The notes below the pieces were generated by a model. The model made no database searches, had not been told where the DNA came from, and was given only the letters and a program-made list of their open reading frames with translations. Of a stretch of 48,453 nt of DNA, positions 21,435 to 32,292 are shown in pieces. The DNA is from a virus: the IMG/VR virus record IMGVR_UViG_3300025168_000139, positions 1 through 48,453 of that record; one strand, written 5' to 3'. Numbering within the stretch: the first letter of the stretch is position 1; each line of letters begins with the position of its first letter. The position numbers were made by a program, and so were the translations under genes.

Positions 21435-21463
21435 TTGCTTTCTTTTATAAAATCCCATATAAT
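21435..21463 (+). promoter_or_regulatory. Sigma70-like promoter for RHH-methyltransferase pair
   Basis: TTGCTT (21435-21440), 17-nt spacer, consensus TATAAT (21458-21463), directly after the terminator and 25 nt before the ATG with an AGGAG ribosome site. The CCCATATAATCT core recurs at 27338-27349. Confidence 0.65.
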
Positions 21464-21487
21464 CTTAAAAAAATACAGGAGTAACAG

Positions 21488-23151: not shown

Positions 23152-23209
23152 ATATACCCTTTCGTTACGAAATGAGATAAAGTCTTATAAACAATTAACG
23201 GAGGAAAGA

Positions 23210-23452
23210 ATGCAAAAAAAAGACATACCAAACCGCAGACCATGTGTCACAACAGATGTTGGAGAAGGACTGGCTGTTACTGTCAGTTTTCATCCTAAAA
23301 CCGGCGATGCTGTTGAAGTTTTTATGACGGGAAGAGGGAAAGCGTCCGACAATCCTATGCAAGACGCTCTCTATAATATGGGTGTTAAAGCGTCCGAACT
23401 GATGCAGATGGACGATTCTCCTGAAGAGCCTTCTCAAGTTCAAGCGGAGTAG
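23210..23452 (+). CDS. Small protein, weak TSCPD-like similarity
   Basis: An 80-residue protein with a strong site (ACGGAGGAAAGA). It runs RRPCVTTDVGEGLAVTVSFH then DAVEVFMTGRGKASDNPMQD with a helical end, reminiscent of the small TSCPD domain found at the C-terminus of some ribonucleotide reductases and as free phage proteins. The resemblance is by eye only. Its last 68 bp overlap the convergent zinc-ribbon gene. Confidence 0.65.
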   Translation: MQKKDIPNRRPCVTTDVGEGLAVTVSFHPKTGDAVEVFMTGRGKASDNPMQDALYNMGVKASELMQMDDSPEEPSQVQAE

Positions 23453-24033: not shown

Positions 24034-24159
24034 GTAAGAAGAGAACTTTATCAAGGTTCCGGCTATTTGACAACGTAAGTGACTAAAGTAACGGGTTTTT
24101 CCAAAAGGGAGAACACTCGAAGCTTTTCTTTTATTTTAACATAACATGGAGAAAAGAAC
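24034..24159 (+). ncRNA. Long, possibly structured 5' leader of the C39-like gene
   Basis: About 125 nt lie between the predicted start site and the ATG. GTTTTTCC (24095-24102), AAAA loop, GGGAGAAC (24107-24114) pairs over 8 bp with two G-U pairs; a weaker GAAC/GTTC hairpin is at 24043-24059. The leader ends with ATGGAGAAAAGAA (24146-24158), a ribosome-site box shared with other accessory genes. No known riboswitch consensus was recognised. Confidence 0.35.
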
Positions 24160-24936: not shown

Positions 24937-24943
24937 ATTTGTG

Positions 24944-24972
24944 TTGACTTTGTATGGGATAAGTCTTATACT
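24944..24972 (+). promoter_or_regulatory. Strong sigma70-like promoter for five-gene small-protein operon
   Basis: TTGACT (24944-24949), 17-nt spacer, TATACT (24967-24972). The spacer contains TATGGGATAAGTCTTAT, one of the recurring elements of the accessory region; its ATAAG-T-CTTAT core is palindromic and overlaps the -10, so it may be an operator. Confidence 0.75.
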
Positions 24973-25002
24973 TATAGCATCTTAAATTAGAAAGGGAAGT
25001 TT

Positions 25003-25188
25003 ATGAGTAAATGTTTATGCGATTACCACGATAATTGGTATGAAATGAAAAGTTGTCCGTTTCACGAACCACATAAAGATGCTAACACCGGCAGACGATG
25101 CGAGTTCTGGAATATGGAAACCGGCGAATGCTATAGCGATGATAAATTTGATATAATGGATTGGGAGCCTAGCGATGAAAGAGCTTAG
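25003..25188 (+). CDS. Small Cys-rich protein
   Basis: A 61-residue protein with Cys in CLC, SCPFH, RRC and GEC contexts plus several His, likely a small metal-binding fold. The ATG has an AAAGGGAAG site. First gene of a tightly overlapping operon (25003-26109). Function unknown. Confidence 0.65.
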   Translation: MSKCLCDYHDNWYEMKSCPFHEPHKDANTGRRCEFWNMETGECYSDDKFDIMDWEPSDERA

Positions 25189-25889: not shown

Positions 25890-26109
25890 AATTAATATTA
25901 GAAAAATTCAGGAAGTAATGTTTGATTTGTATGACGTGGCCAATGGTAAAATATCAAAGTTTTCCAAAGGTTATGCCAAAGAGCTTGCAGAAAAGCTAGA
26001 AGATGTTGAGCAAGATTTGAAAGCAAGAAACGAAGACCCTGACGAACAATTGGGCAAACAAATTTACTCTGGTGCTTTTTTAAATAAAGAAGTTGACACC
26101 AAGAAATAA
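25882..26109 (+). CDS. Small helical protein, last gene of operon
   Basis: The ATG at 25882 overlaps the previous gene by 8 bp; longer versions starting upstream would lie within that gene. The 75-residue product is helical (YAKELAEKLEDVEQDLKARN). The final codons contain the -35 box TTGACA of the next promoter, so the gene end doubles as a promoter. Confidence 0.55.
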   Translation: MSEINIRKIQEVMFDLYDVANGKISKFSKGYAKELAEKLEDVEQDLKARNEDPDEQLGKQIYSGAFLNKEVDTKK

Positions 26110-26122
26110 AAAATGCTATAAT
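26093..26122 (+). promoter_or_regulatory. Consensus sigma70 promoter driving a short RNA
   Basis: Perfect TTGACA (26093-26098) and perfect TATAAT (26117-26122) with an 18-nt spacer, the best promoter match I found in the window. The predicted start is near 26129. Confidence 0.8.
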
Positions 26123-26128
26123 ATAGAA

Positions 26129-26189
26129 GATTCTTTTCTCTGTGGTCAGACACAACTTAAAACCCCCGTCCTATAAGCGGGGGTTTTTT
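26129..26189 (+). ncRNA. Candidate ~60-nt small RNA
   Basis: A terminator begins about 38 nt after the start of the -10 box: AACCCCCG (26161-26168), 9-nt loop, CGGGGGTT (26178-26185), then T tract to 26189. No ORF with a ribosome site fits in between. The 5' part contains a small hairpin TGTG-GTCAGA-CACA around 26140-26154 and a pyrimidine-rich start (TTCTTTTCTCTG) that could pair with purine-rich ribosome sites. The hairpin also terminates the upstream operon, so readthrough control is an alternative. Confidence 0.55.
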
Positions 26190-26439
26190 GTTACATAAGT
26201 ATACAGTATACACTATGTTCTGAAATCAAAAAAAATATTTTTATTTTTTGGGAAAACAGCGTATACTTATGTAACATTTTAGTTATCTAATTGAATCTAA
26301 AAGGTTAATCAGGAAAATATTGTTACATATTTGATTTTCAATGGTGTATACGTGTAACACTTCTTGACTTCTTTTTTGTTTTGTGGAAGTAATGTAACAT
26401 AGACACAGTAACAGTTACAGCAAGTGAGACAGTAAAAAC
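26190..26439. repeat. Inverted and iterated motif cluster upstream of TerS
   Basis: A 250-bp gene-free region. GTTACATAAGTATAC (26190-26204) is matched by its exact reverse complement at 26261-26275. GTATAC occurs at 26199, 26206, 26261 and 26346. GTTAC/GTAAC occurs repeatedly to about 26415, including GTAACAGTTAC. A third degenerate pair is GTTACATATTTG (26322) with GTATACGTGTAAC (26346-26358). Between the first arms is an A/T tract. This could be a replication origin, a TerS recognition (pac) site or a multi-operator. Confidence 0.7.
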
Positions 26440-27389: not shown

Positions 27390-27476
27390 ATGTTTTTATT
27401 TATTAAATTATGGAATTTAATTTATTGGGGATCAACAGACCCTCAACCTCAGTATAAATCTAAAAGGAGAAAATAA
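27390..27476 (+). CDS. 28-residue hydrophobic leader peptide
   Basis: ATG at 27390 with AAAGGAGA site, product MFLFIKLWNLIYWGSTDPQP then a basic tail ending KSKRRK. The tail codons include the AAAGGAGA ribosome site of the next gene, and TAATG couples the two. Either a membrane micropeptide or a translational leader. Confidence 0.45.
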   Translation: MFLFIKLWNLIYWGSTDPQPQYKSKRRK

Positions 27477-27874
27477 TGTTAGCTACAGAGAAAGAATCAG
27501 TATTTTTAAAAACACTACCAATGTGGGTTATGGGCTTTGCACAAATCAGGCTTTCTAAAACCATGTTAAATAAATCAATAATAGATGCCAATAAATCTGT
27601 CAGGGATTTAGCTTTAAATTTTGGCATTGACTTTGATAAAATGAAAAACGGCGACAAGTATGAAGTATTAGCTCGCTTTGATGATCCAGATAGTAACCAA
27701 CATTCTATAGTCCGGTTTTATAAAACTATTAATCGTGGTGATAGGCGTGTTTCTATAAAAGGTATAAATCAATATGCTAATATTGGTGATCTAATAGCTT
27801 TGTCAGCTTGCCTTCCAAAAGATGACAATAAAGATATCATTATAATCAATGTAACTAGGAGGGCTAATCAATGA
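27476..27874 (+). CDS. Hypothetical accessory protein
   Basis: A 132-residue protein, start overlapping the leader peptide stop. It reads as an alpha/beta protein (YEVLARFDDPDSNQHSIVRF, RRVSIKGINQYANIGDLIAL). No motif recognised. Overlaps the next gene by 4 bp, so 27390-29021 is one operon. Base composition is very AT-rich. Confidence 0.6.
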   Translation: MLATEKESVFLKTLPMWVMGFAQIRLSKTMLNKSIIDANKSVRDLALNFGIDFDKMKNGDKYEVLARFDDPDSNQHSIVRFYKTINRGDRRVSIKGINQYANIGDLIALSACLPKDDNKDIIIINVTRRANQ

Positions 27875-28212
27875 GTAAATGGTACTTAATAACTGCTTTT
27901 TGTAGGAATGGTTTTTATGAAACATACTCAGAAACGCTTACCAAAGCGGAACGTGATGATGTTAAAACCTCAGAATGGGAAAAAGAGTTTTTAGATTGGG
28001 AATTTGGTGGTGTTGAATATAATCCTGATGATGAACATTATTGGTCAGATGCAAGAATAGTAAGTGTTTATTCTGTATTGGAAGTACCGGAAGAAGATAT
28101 TGAAGTGTTAAAAAAATATAAATATGTTCATTCTTTTGACGAAATAGTTAAAGAAAGAGATGCACCTTTAAATCCATTACCACAGCAACTTATAGGCGGA
28201 GAAAGTAAATGA
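27871..28212 (+). CDS. Hypothetical acidic accessory protein
   Basis: A 113-residue protein with a TAGGAGGG site 8 nt before the ATG. Acidic and aromatic (FLDWEFGGVEYNPDDEHYW), beginning MSKWYLITAFCRNGFYETY. Overlaps the next gene by 4 bp (ATGA). Function unknown. Confidence 0.6.
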   Translation: MSKWYLITAFCRNGFYETYSETLTKAERDDVKTSEWEKEFLDWEFGGVEYNPDDEHYWSDARIVSVYSVLEVPEEDIEVLKKYKYVHSFDEIVKERDAPLNPLPQQLIGGESK

Positions 28213-29021
28213 GTCGTTCATATGAAGAATATTTAAAATTAGCGCAAGAGCAGGCTGAAGGTGGCTTTTATACTAAGGCATCTTATAAAGAGGCTACAAG
28301 GTGTTTAGGCGATGCTTTTAATTTATTTAAAATGAGAGATTTACCTACTGGTGAATTTTATGGTGAAACTATTGATAATTTTGGTCAATCTTTTCCTACA
28401 AGACCAGAGTTAATTGGTAAAGAAATTATGGAATGGCAAAGAGTTGATATCTGGAATTTTAAGCCAGAAAAACATCTTTCTGAATATGGTGAATCTGCGC
28501 AACCAAAAGTTATGAAGTTGTATGAACTATGGCATCAATACAAAAGCATGGGCATTACAGCTAAACCTAAAGTAAAGAAAGAAATTAAATTTACTGACAG
28601 GCAGGCAACTCATTGGGGTACTTGCCAAGTTTGCGGTAAGCACCATAAAGTTGACAAAAAATATAATGTAATTGCAGAACATGGTTATACGCTTATGTAT
28701 GGCGGTCAAAGCGGTAGTTGTTTTGGTAGCAAGCATAAGCCATTAGAATTGTCTTGCTCAATAAGTAAAAGTTGGGTTGAGCAATTACAAAGAATTAAAG
28801 CCAATAATCATAAAAACGCTTTTGTTAAAGATGATCGTCTTGGCAATGCAAGAAAGTACGTCAAATTATGGTTGCAAGAAGAAGGCTATAAAACATCAGT
28901 TCAAAGAACTGTTACATTAGAATGGGCAGATAATTATATTAATAAACAAATTAATCAAACTAACAAAGTAATTGAAGGTTGGAAAGAAAAGCCTTTAATG
29001 CCAATTGAGATATGGGAATAG
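28209..29021 (+). CDS. Protein with phage-type zinc-binding CxxC...HGY...C domain
   Basis: A 270-residue protein. The centre has CQVCGKHHKV, then IAEHGYTL and SGSCFGSKHKP, matching the pattern CxVCG...xxHGY...xxSCxGxxxxP found in many phage proteins of unknown function and probably binding zinc. The N-terminal ~110 residues are helical. It closes the operon starting at 27390. Confidence 0.65.
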   Translation: MSRSYEEYLKLAQEQAEGGFYTKASYKEATRCLGDAFNLFKMRDLPTGEFYGETIDNFGQSFPTRPELIGKEIMEWQRVDIWNFKPEKHLSEYGESAQPKVMKLYELWHQYKSMGITAKPKVKKEIKFTDRQATHWGTCQVCGKHHKVDKKYNVIAEHGYTLMYGGQSGSCFGSKHKPLELSCSISKSWVEQLQRIKANNHKNAFVKDDRLGNARKYVKLWLQEEGYKTSVQRTVTLEWADNYINKQINQTNKVIEGWKEKPLMPIEIWE

Positions 29022-29043: not shown

Positions 29044-29057
29044 AACCAAAGTTATTA

Positions 29058-29087
29058 AAGGCCGTCCAGATTGACGGCCTTTTTTAT
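29058..29087 (+). terminator. Intrinsic terminator
   Basis: AAGGCCGTC, CAGATT loop, GACGGCCTT, then T tract; 9-bp perfect stem ending the 27390-29021 operon. Confidence 0.93.
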
Positions 29088-29099
29088 TTGTGATATCAT

Positions 29100-29117
29100 A
29101 TGGGATAAATCTTATAG
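29100..29117 (+). promoter_or_regulatory. Recurring promoter-like element
   Basis: ATGGGATAAATCTTATAG, directly after the terminator and 9 nt before the ATG of the next gene. Related to 23172-23190, 24954-24970 and 31059-31077. If the TTATAG is a -10 box, the mRNA would be almost leaderless. Confidence 0.4.
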
Positions 29118-29126
29118 GAGAAAAGA

Positions 29127-29750
29127 ATGTTTATTAAAAAATCTAAAATGTCAGGAAAACTATTAGGACTGGACGCTATCAATTCAAATACTTTATCCAA
29201 TGAATTTTGCCAGAAAGAACATAAATCACCTGTTCAAAATAAAATATGTAAAATATGTTTTTCTTTTGCAATGTTAGAAAGTTATAGAGGAAATTGTATT
29301 CCTAATTTTGAAAACAACAGCGTAGCCTTATCAACTATAATACATGAAGATTTTAGTTATTTACGTTTTAGAAATGATATTGCCAGACTGCATGGACATG
29401 GTGAGCTAATTAACCAAACCCATCTACATAATTTTGTACATATGGTTAAATTTTTCCCCGATATTACTTTTGCTTTATGGTCTAAGCGTACTGATATTAT
29501 CCGCAAGTATTTTAAAAATAATGAAATACCTGATAACCTAATTTTGGTTTATTCTAATCCAGTTATTGATAAAGTAATGACTAAAATTCCCAGACCTTTT
29601 AATAAAGTCTTTAACAATGTATCTGAGAGATATAACGGCGGAGATGAAAACTGCACTGGACAAAAATGCAACGATTGTAGGCTATGCTATCAGTTTGATA
29701 CGGAGAACATAATTATTGAACAACAAAAGTTTTATGGAAAGAAACAATAA
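29127..29750 (+). CDS. Cys-rich protein, GP88-like
   Basis: A 207-residue protein. Two cysteine clusters are visible: FCQKEHKSPVQNKICKICFS (residues ~28-46) and CTGQKCNDCRLCYQ near 180-195. Between them is FPDITFALWSKRTDII and LILVYSNPVID. This layout, SGKMxG at the start and CxxC-type clusters at both ends, recalls the phage/actinophage GP88-type family and may bind a metal cluster. Enzymatic activity is unknown. Single-gene unit. Confidence 0.55.
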   Translation: MFIKKSKMSGKLLGLDAINSNTLSNEFCQKEHKSPVQNKICKICFSFAMLESYRGNCIPNFENNSVALSTIIHEDFSYLRFRNDIARLHGHGELINQTHLHNFVHMVKFFPDITFALWSKRTDIIRKYFKNNEIPDNLILVYSNPVIDKVMTKIPRPFNKVFNNVSERYNGGDENCTGQKCNDCRLCYQFDTENIIIEQQKFYGKKQ

Positions 29751-29823: not shown

Positions 29824-29852
29824 AATTTTAATGTCAATATGGAGAAAAGAAT

Positions 29853-31007
29853 ATGACACATACTATTGAAAATTCTAATAATGAATTACTAAACTTAATG
29901 CAAAAAGTAAAAGATCAGGCGGAGCGTAGCAAAGATTTTATAGCTCCAACTAATGCTTTACAAATACAAACTTTAAATAAAGACGGAAGCCCCGCAGACG
30001 ATAGCGAGCAGTCAAAATTTAGTCGCATAGTCGTAGAGCGTGAAGATGGCGAGCCTACTTATATGTACAATGCTAACGATGTAGCATTGTCACAAATAGG
30101 GCAAAGAGCGGGCATTGATTCCAGAACTATGCAACGCTTGCAACAAGGATACCCAACCCAGTTTGATAGTGTAATAAATGCTATTTGGCAAAAAGAACCA
30201 AAAAATACTATGATCCGAACTTTTATGGATTCTGATACGCATGGAATTGCTAGAGCTGTTTTATCAGATAAGTTTAAAACTTTTGATAATACCAATTTAC
30301 TTAACTCAGCTATTCCACAGCTGATGGAATCCGAAGCCCAATGGAAAGTAGTGAATGCGGACGTTACTGATAAAAGATTATACTTGCGTTTAAAATCGGA
30401 AGTCATAACTGGTGAAGGTGCTAACAAAGGTGATTTAATGGCTTCCGGAATAGGACTTTCTAATAGTGAAGTAGGTGCGGGAAGCGTCCAAGTTTACCAG
30501 ATGTACTGGACGTTAGCTTGCCTTAATGGAATGCAAACCGAAAACCGCCATAGACAGTCGCATATTACTAGCTCGCAAGCAGATGGCGAAACGTGGAAAA
30601 TGTTAACTAACGAAGCTAAAGACGCTGACAATAAAGCATTAGAATTAAAAGTCAGGGACTTAGTAGCGGGTTATACTTCCCGCGATTCTTTTGATGAAGT
30701 CGTTGATAAAATGAAAACAGCGGGGCAAGACATTATTGAAGGAAGCGTAAATAATGCAGTCGATAATTTAGGAAAAGTTATTAACCTAACTAAAAAAGAA
30801 ACTAGCTCAGTACTGGACGGCTTGATGGCAACCATAGGTCAAGAAGGATACGCCGGAAATGCAATTAGTAGGGCAACCATGGTTAATGCGGTCACAAATG
30901 TAGCTAACCGCGTTGACGCTGATGAAATGGACGACTGGCAAAGGCGGGGCGGTCAAATACTTAACATGAATAAGACCGACTGGAATCGGGTAGCTGTAGC
31001 GGTTTAA
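29853..31007 (+). CDS. DUF932-like phage/plasmid protein
   Basis: A 384-residue protein. The core HGIARAVLSDKFKTFDNTNL, a beta segment (DKRLYLRLKSEV) and GIGLSNSEVGAGSVQVYQMY with LACLNGM match, loosely, the DUF932 pattern (aflSdrY, vNSxdGs, CxNgm) of proteins common in phages and plasmids. The C-terminal half is helical and charged. Function unknown; DUF932 proteins are often highly expressed early genes. Own promoter and terminator. Confidence 0.55.
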   Translation: MTHTIENSNNELLNLMQKVKDQAERSKDFIAPTNALQIQTLNKDGSPADDSEQSKFSRIVVEREDGEPTYMYNANDVALSQIGQRAGIDSRTMQRLQQGYPTQFDSVINAIWQKEPKNTMIRTFMDSDTHGIARAVLSDKFKTFDNTNLLNSAIPQLMESEAQWKVVNADVTDKRLYLRLKSEVITGEGANKGDLMASGIGLSNSEVGAGSVQVYQMYWTLACLNGMQTENRHRQSHITSSQADGETWKMLTNEAKDADNKALELKVRDLVAGYTSRDSFDEVVDKMKTAGQDIIEGSVNNAVDNLGKVINLTKKETSSVLDGLMATIGQEGYAGNAISRATMVNAVTNVANRVDADEMDDWQRRGGQILNMNKTDWNRVAVAV

Positions 31008-31077: not shown

Positions 31078-31105
31078 TTTTAACCTTAATTATGGAGAAA
31101 ATCAC

Positions 31106-31513
31106 ATGGAAAAGAATCAACCATTAGTAGGAAGACTAGTAGACCCAATGGCAGTATCAGAAGAAAACCCGCCAGTAGATAAAGTTATGAATCAGCAATC
31201 AGAATTATTAGATATGATAGCGGGAGGAATAGCGGGGCTAGCTTCTTTATCAGCTGAGAGAAACTTCCCAACTGAAAAGATAAATAAAATTGTTGAAGAA
31301 GAAGTTAAAAAACAATTTGATCGAAAAGATTATATTGAAGCTGATGAACTTCCTTCAGCACTTGAAAATAGTGATGTAGTTTTTAAAGATACTTTTGATG
31401 ATCAATTATCAGATCACAGCGTTTTAACTGTAGATTCTGAGCTTTCTGAATATTTTGACGTTGACGATATTGTAGACAAAGTTATTGATCAGATAGAAAT
31501 AACAAGAAAATAA
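31106..31513 (+). CDS. Hypothetical acidic protein
   Basis: A 135-residue acidic protein. Residues ~25-60 contain helical Ala/Gly-rich MIAGGIAGLASLSAE, followed by a charged region ending in VDDIVDKVIDQIEITRK, a probable coiled coil. Single-gene unit with its own terminator. Function unknown. Confidence 0.6.
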   Translation: MEKNQPLVGRLVDPMAVSEENPPVDKVMNQQSELLDMIAGGIAGLASLSAERNFPTEKINKIVEEEVKKQFDRKDYIEADELPSALENSDVVFKDTFDDQLSDHSVLTVDSELSEYFDVDDIVDKVIDQIEITRK

Positions 31514-31539
31514 ACACCGCGTTTAAACCGCGTTTAAAG

Positions 31540-31567
31540 CCCGCTAGATTGACTGGCGGGTTTTTTT
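31540..31567 (+). terminator. Intrinsic terminator
   Basis: CCCGCTAG, ATTGA loop, CTGGCGGG with one G-T pair, then seven T. Preceded by a tandem 11-bp repeat CCGCGTTTAAA (31517-31527 and 31528-31538). Confidence 0.92.
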
Positions 31568-31588
31568 ATGCATATTATCGCATATAAC
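31568..31588 (+). promoter_or_regulatory. Promoter-like element, second type
   Basis: ATGCATATTATCGCATATAAC directly after the terminator; nearly repeated as ATGCCTATAATATCGCATAT from 32248, also directly after a terminator. Both copies precede a ribosome site by about 10 nt. Confidence 0.45.
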
Positions 31589-31605
31589 TAACAATGGAGA
31601 AGAGA

Positions 31606-31968
31606 ATGCCTTTAAATTGGAATATAGCGGAAACAACCGCTTATAAAAATAAAAACCAATATGAAAACTTTAATTTTATATTGGACGCTATAGTATTTTC
31701 AACTATGGCTGTTGATATAGGTCAGATAAAAAACGAAGATCTTGCCGACCAATTTGTAGATAGAATTATTTTGATCGAATCTAATTTTGGAAAACTATAT
31801 GCTTTATCGGGAACGCCTAGAAAATCATTACTAGCTGATAGAGATTTATTAAAAAATTTTATCGGATTAAGAACTAATGTTTTAACCTTGCCATTTAATA
31901 AATGGTATAAAACAAAAATTTTAGATAGAAGATTCAAACTTTATGAGGAACTTAAAAATGTCAGTTAA
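31606..31968 (+). CDS. Hypothetical accessory protein
   Basis: Start taken at ATG 31606 with GGAGAAGAG just upstream; an in-frame ATG at 31594 would translate this ribosome-site box as MEKR. The 120-residue product is helical (NFILDAIVFSTMAVDIGQIK, DLADQFVDRIILIESNF) with a basic end. No motif recognised. Overlaps the next gene by 11 bp. Confidence 0.6.
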   Translation: MPLNWNIAETTAYKNKNQYENFNFILDAIVFSTMAVDIGQIKNEDLADQFVDRIILIESNFGKLYALSGTPRKSLLADRDLLKNFIGLRTNVLTLPFNKWYKTKILDRRFKLYEELKNVS

Positions 31969-32216: not shown

Positions 32217-32247
32217 AACCCCGCCAAATTGACGGCGGGGTTTTTTT
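32217..32247 (+). terminator. Intrinsic terminator
   Basis: AACCCCGCC, AAATTGAC loop, GGCGGGGTT, then T tract. Confidence 0.93.
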
Positions 32248-32292
32248 ATGCCTATAATATCGCATATAAACAACGAAAGGAAAAAAACCAAA

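Follow-up and report, generated by a model that had tools for sequence, protein, structure and literature searches.

The question raised by this locus is what a strong promoter and a strong terminator are for when no gene lies between them. The window, i.e. the whole stretch of DNA analysed, is a 48,453-base virus record (IMG/VR IMGVR_UViG_3300025168_000139) encoding PolA, a primase, a helicase, a terminase, a portal and a capsid protein. Its large terminase is closest to those of the phages 023Pt_psg01, HTVC027P, DSL-LC04 and HTVC023P (55–64% identity), so the phage is related to HTVC023P-type pelagiphages; its host is not known. The proteins scanned include no recognised lysogeny gene, and the large ORFs no recognised RNA polymerase gene. 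We consider it likely that the unit encodes a trans-acting antisense sRNA by which the phage represses the translation of several genes of its own, the expression, repressive effect and timing of the RNA being inferred.

Promoter, terminator and predicted RNA

A sigma70 promoter of the form TTGACA-N18-TATAAT lies at 26093–26122 on the + strand, with the −35 box at 26093–26098, the −10 box at 26117–26122, a spacer of 18 nt and an extended −10 TG two bases 5′ of the −10 box. It is the only 12/12 match to the sigma70 consensus on either strand of the window, where about 0.05 would be expected from the dinucleotide make-up, in line with the preliminary description of it as exact and rare; the −35 box does lie, as was also stated there, within the final codons of the preceding gene. 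The GC-rich terminator that had been placed about 38 nt past the −10 box was confirmed as a strong intrinsic terminator at 26159–26189 (+ strand), with the structure AAAACCCCCG-TCCTATAA-GCGGGGGTTTTTT, a GC-rich stem followed by T6. It was not picked up by the automated terminator scan, apparently because its loop is above the size limit of the scan.

Promoter and terminator are separated by about 38–40 nt without a conserved ORF. The sole start codon inside the unit, GTG at 26142, has no Shine–Dalgarno sequence and its frame differs in content, with indels, in the relatives, so the earlier statement that no ORF fits between the two elements holds. A conserved peptide encoded by the RNA was ruled out, as neither the start nor the frame is conserved, and a role of the unit as the ribosome site of an opposite-strand gene was ruled out as well, as no conserved minus-strand ORF comes after it.

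The predicted RNA is 59–62 nt long, from about 26127/26129 to 26187 (about 72 nt in most relatives), and no transcript has been observed. It is predicted to fold with a mostly open 5′ segment, followed by a small hairpin (UGUG...CACA; 26141–26155, + strand) and then the terminator. Rfam gave no match to the RNA at the gathering score, and the best sub-threshold match falls well short of the cut-off and is on the opposite strand. The only Hfq-related feature is the U-rich terminator tail, and there are no Hfq-binding data. A promoter and an intrinsic terminator of its own, together with the absence of an ORF, constitute one criterion for a trans-encoded base-pairing sRNA, and this criterion is met.

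The same elements could mark an ordinary cassette boundary, in which the terminator closes the upstream operon, the promoter is a leftover or provides weak read-through for TerS, and the RNA is functionless. We compared this with the promoter/stem–loop shuffling cassettes (PeSL) of T4-type phages, reportedly described by Arbiol et al. in 2010. The region is indeed a mosaic in which several terminator/promoter boundary elements are conserved. At those, however, the promoter overlaps or follows the terminator, whereas here it precedes it by ~40 nt, and a boundary leaves the conserved seed and the target matches described below unexplained; this explanation seems quite improbable.

Conservation of the unit and its seed

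A TerS search yielded 11 close relatives among IMG/VR contigs, with TerS 88–100% identical, one of which (L001) is identical to the window. L163 is a more diverged relative (TerS 81%), and L166, L168 and L171 form a sister clade (TerS 60–62%). Loss of the promoter and the hairpin in close relatives would have refuted the proposal of an RNA; all 11 keep the promoter–terminator unit, with TATAAT as the −10 box in every case. The terminator stem is kept with a C-G to U-G change and with differing loops. The small hairpin is likewise kept without covariation, and no compensatory hairpin changes were seen in the RNA among relatives, so the covariation check proposed at the outset lent no support, the sequences being too alike.

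The 5′ end of the RNA, AAGATTCTTTTCTCTGTG (26127–26144, + strand; the seed), is invariant at 18/18 positions across eight distinct lineages. It is flanked on the 5′ side by a stretch of variable sequence and length and on the 3′ side by an indel-rich middle. In the same comparison, 28/48 of the fourfold-degenerate sites of TerS were invariant, and simple arithmetic gives about 6e-5 for 18 invariant sites in a row at that rate. A conserved and mostly unpaired seed is a second sRNA criterion that the unit meets. No other copy of the seed 17-mer behind a promoter was found in IMG/VR or among 84,980 genomes. The 40 matches to the seed elsewhere in bacterial genomes are about the number expected by chance, none having the promoter in front, and among the other viral matches to the seed plus terminator only those in the clade and L163 resemble the unit.

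The last ~25 codons of the preceding gene (EDPDEQLGKQIYSGAF..., 26036–26106) are common to upstream proteins with differing N-terminal parts in the window and its relatives. This C-terminal peptide tail is confined to the 11 close contigs, and it was rejected as the cause of conservation because the gene preceding the unit in L163 is a different one that lacks it; the unit is thus independent of the tail.

Strict conservation of the early transcribed region, in a promoter–terminator pair directly 5′ of TerS, also fits a late leader like that of lambda pR′, which is the main rival explanation. A constitutive promoter would then give a terminated short transcript comparable to lambda 6S, and polymerase would read into TerS and beyond once a phage antiterminator had loaded at the promoter or the early transcribed region. 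However, the scans of early, accessory and hypothetical proteins recognised no antiterminator family and matched no Q-type protein, although remote or unscanned ones are not excluded. Furthermore, many genes 3′ of TerS are small and non-structural, and a late leader predicts neither antisense matches to other genes nor co-variation of seed and target. We therefore regard it as unlikely.

Complementarity to the phage's own ribosome sites

In eight phage genes, all at 23–32 kb, the seed is antisense to the first codons or to the extended ribosome site (GGAGAAAAGAAUG). Its reverse complement CACAGAGAAAAGAATCTT includes the extended ribosome site GAGAAAAGAAT, and the 10-mer GAGAAAAGAA has three copies on the coding strand of the window, all of them directly 5′ of a start codon (24160, 29127 and 29853).

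The best predicted target is gene 27476 (27476–27874; 132 aa, unknown function), where 17 bp are formed with mRNA codons 4–8 (27487–27504) at −18.2 to −23.4 kcal/mol; CACAGAGAAAGAATC is present in these codons in 9/9 relatives compared, and the site is retained also where the sequence upstream of it is replaced. In gene 29127 (GP88, PF17338), the ribosome site and start (29114–29130) contain an 11-nt exact complement, GAGAAAAGAAU, and are kept in all eight relatives compared. The ribosome site of gene 29853 (phrog_1362, 384 aa; site 29837–29853) also has an 11-nt exact complement, kept in 7/7 relatives compared despite replaced sequence further upstream. The start and first codons of gene 31106 (31100–31117; −18.1 kcal/mol) are kept in five of the six relatives compared, and the ribosome site of gene 31606 (ATG 31606; site 31593–31608; −15.9 to −16.6 kcal/mol) in 3/3. 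The other three ribosome sites are not kept across the clade: that of gene 23210 (23197–23212; −18.5 in the window and −18.6 in L040) is lost (−11.0) in 4/5 relatives, all but L040; that of gene 24160 (24144–24159; −16.8 in the window and L040) was found in no relative other than L040; and that of gene 28209 (28195–28216), the weakest listed (−15.2 with a bulge), has no homologous site in the relatives. All eight sites are on the + strand. In full-length cofolding, which charges for unfolding, gene 27476 came first (−17.8), followed by 31106, 31606 and 29853, and the values for 29127 (−9.2) and 24160 (−7.0) were modest. Outside the clade, the complementary site was absent from the orthologues checked of 27476 (13; 43–52%) and of 29853 (eight; 57–58%).

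For the pairing statistics, initiation regions were scored from −30 to +29 with a threshold of −15 kcal/mol, the gene starts being our own calls. Eight genes, all at 23.2–31.6 kb, reached the threshold, a count matched by 1/2445 natural composition-matched 18-mers and by none within the 23–32 kb region. With a narrower initiation region, six genes did so, a result equalled by 1/2487 natural and 0/3000 shuffled controls, and the exact-match lengths (11, 11, 10 and 10) were equalled by 0/3000 controls. Some complementarity of the seed comes free because ribosome sites are purine-rich, which the controls address; the pairing hypothesis took its sharper form only once the match had been seen, although the seed itself was delimited by conservation. 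The suggestion that the RNA could pair with GGAG-type ribosome sites is thereby upheld well beyond the controls, and complementarity to initiation regions in excess of chance is another sRNA criterion fulfilled here.

Co-variation of seed and target in L163

In L163, the promoter is weaker (−35 TTGACA kept, −10 TATATT at 15 nt), and a 14-nt core of the seed, TTCTTTTCTCTGTG, and the terminator are kept. The L163 seed begins AUACUUUC, compared with AAGAUUC in the window, so AGAUUC has become ACUUUC; the target in gene 27476 has changed from GAAUCA to GAAAGU. The L163 homologue of this gene retains TEKES with its serine codon switched from TCA to AGT, indicating that two base pairs were swapped to match the altered seed. 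The window and L163 seeds pair with their own targets at −23.4 and −25.1 kcal/mol respectively, compared with −16.6 and −18.0 crosswise. Compensatory seed–target change is a further sRNA criterion, met in one lineage, with two swapped pairs, for gene 27476, whose L163 homologue is just 52% identical. Although the transcript is unobserved, the 5′-end conservation, the eight-site pairing and this co-variation support the preliminary description of a phage-encoded regulatory RNA.

The RNA might be real and yet act mainly on host mRNAs, the phage ribosome-site matches being a by-product of an anti-Shine–Dalgarno-like seed. Phage RNAs with host targets are known, namely PreS and VpdS (PMC12197685), and the host here is not. 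However, the phage matches exceed those of composition-matched controls and cluster at 23–32 kb, and the seed co-varies with a phage gene, which leaves this explanation with almost no weight.

A possible analogous unit in the sister clade

In L166, L168 and L171, TerS is preceded by a leader that lies between a promoter-like TTGACG element and a terminator; the promoter-like TTGACGGTRCRCGGYCCACGGACTAGGGT, short leader and terminator lie at about 1770–1850 in L168 and about 1640–1720 in L171. The leaders contain AATCTCCATT or AGTCTCCATT, and their seed, AAUCUCCAUU or AGUCUCCAUU, differs from that of the window and matches AAUGGAGAUU/C ribosome sites in at least two genes of the same phages. The sites to which they are antisense are AATGGAGATT (29853 orthologue) and AATGGAGATTC (a second gene). 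The exact-match result was equalled by 0/3000 controls for L168 and by 29–60/2871 for L171 (a partial contig), the latter being weak support, and the duplex-energy test was not significant for either seed because C-rich controls bind well. The sister clade may carry an analogous sRNA unit whose different seed fits its own ribosome sites, which we regard as a lead. It is conceivable, but remains tentative, that this marine phage lineage generally uses self-directed sRNAs against ribosome sites, the seed in each clade being kept complementary to the extended ribosome site of that clade.

Repeats and boundary elements around the unit

The repeat cluster reported ahead of TerS is real (26188–26435). 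It has a 16-nt perfect inverted repeat, TGTTACATAAGTATAC (26189–26204 and 26261–26276), around an AT-rich stretch, and extra copies of TGTTACAT. Clusters made of other words occur in the same place in relatives: GTTACC in L012–L015, CATTCTCTC in L020–L025 and CTAGGAAAA in HTVC023P. The cluster may be a site of packaging or replication that evolves together with the protein binding it. A CCACGG-centred word (GGCCCACGG, GAACCACGG) is present upstream of TerS in the outgroup phages L012, L014, L166, L168, L171, L028 and HTVC023P.

The unit adjoins the inverted repeat and its AT-rich stretch, and the L163 unit is in the same neighbourhood, as would fit a replication or packaging transcript, like lambda OOP beside the origin, whose synthesis opens or marks the cluster. 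However, transcription ends before the repeats, and both the conservation of the seed and its pairing with targets would be unexplained. We consider such a function very unlikely as the explanation of the unit; it could coexist with an sRNA role.

Elsewhere in the window, at 29057–29099, 31539–31578 and 32217–32258, are terminator hairpins within which lies the −35 box (TTGAC) of the promoter that follows; they are kept in relatives with the flanking genes swapped and resemble shuffling cassettes. A motif, TATGGGATAA(A/G)TCTTATA, lies near promoters at 24941–25011, 29089–29110 and 21440–21465 (reversed at 21440), and 24941–25011 is a conserved island between swapped genes.

Proposed mechanism and comparison with known systems

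Translational repression by an antisense sRNA could proceed as follows. An RNA of ~60 nt would start from the consensus promoter of host type and stop at a terminator of its own, and its single-stranded 5′ segment would pair with the Shine–Dalgarno/start region or first codons of several phage mRNAs, chiefly those of genes 27476, 29127, 29853, 31106 and 31606. Pairing would probably block ribosome binding, perhaps with mRNA decay. The RNA may accumulate as promoter and genome copies increase, so that the small-gene cassette region around TerS would be turned down as it builds up, and the replication and structural genes, which have no site, would remain on. The phage thus probably uses the RNA to turn down its own early genes. 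The promoter, the terminator, the conserved seed, the excess complementarity and one co-varying seed–target pair are computed, whereas it is inferred that the unit is transcribed and that its effect is repressive, as are the timing and any need for Hfq. The model is concrete and testable: a phage whose large ORFs include no recognised RNA polymerase gene could switch off a gene block post-transcriptionally. The naturally co-varied seed–target pair is a ready-made test.

Phage sRNAs described so far are mostly from temperate phages of enterobacteria and vibrios. Repression was inferred from pairing over the Shine–Dalgarno sequence and start codon, as in c4 RNA (P1/P7) and sar RNA (P22), phage antisense RNAs acting on ant mRNA (PMC12197685). 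In those, as predicted here, a phage RNA blocks translation of a phage mRNA by pairing at its ribosome site or close by (PMC12197685). However, c4 and sar belong to temperate phages and have one target each, whereas the present unit is a gene in its own right with several predicted targets, and the scanned proteins of this phage include no recognised lysogeny gene. VpdS of phage VP882, which affects phage and host mRNAs (PMC12197685), and PreS of lambda are likewise trans-acting phage sRNAs, but they differ in sequence and phage and are both Hfq-linked, whereas here the predicted targets form a group of ribosome sites in the phage itself. Lambda 6S, from pR′-tR′, shares a strong promoter and a short terminated RNA near terminase genes; here, however, no Q-type protein was found, and the seed–target co-variation points to pairing. 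As in the PeSL cassettes of T4-type phages, regulatory elements are retained while neighbouring genes shuffle, but the order of the elements and the antisense seed set the present unit apart. The mechanism is known in kind, and the family and its self-targeting design are new.
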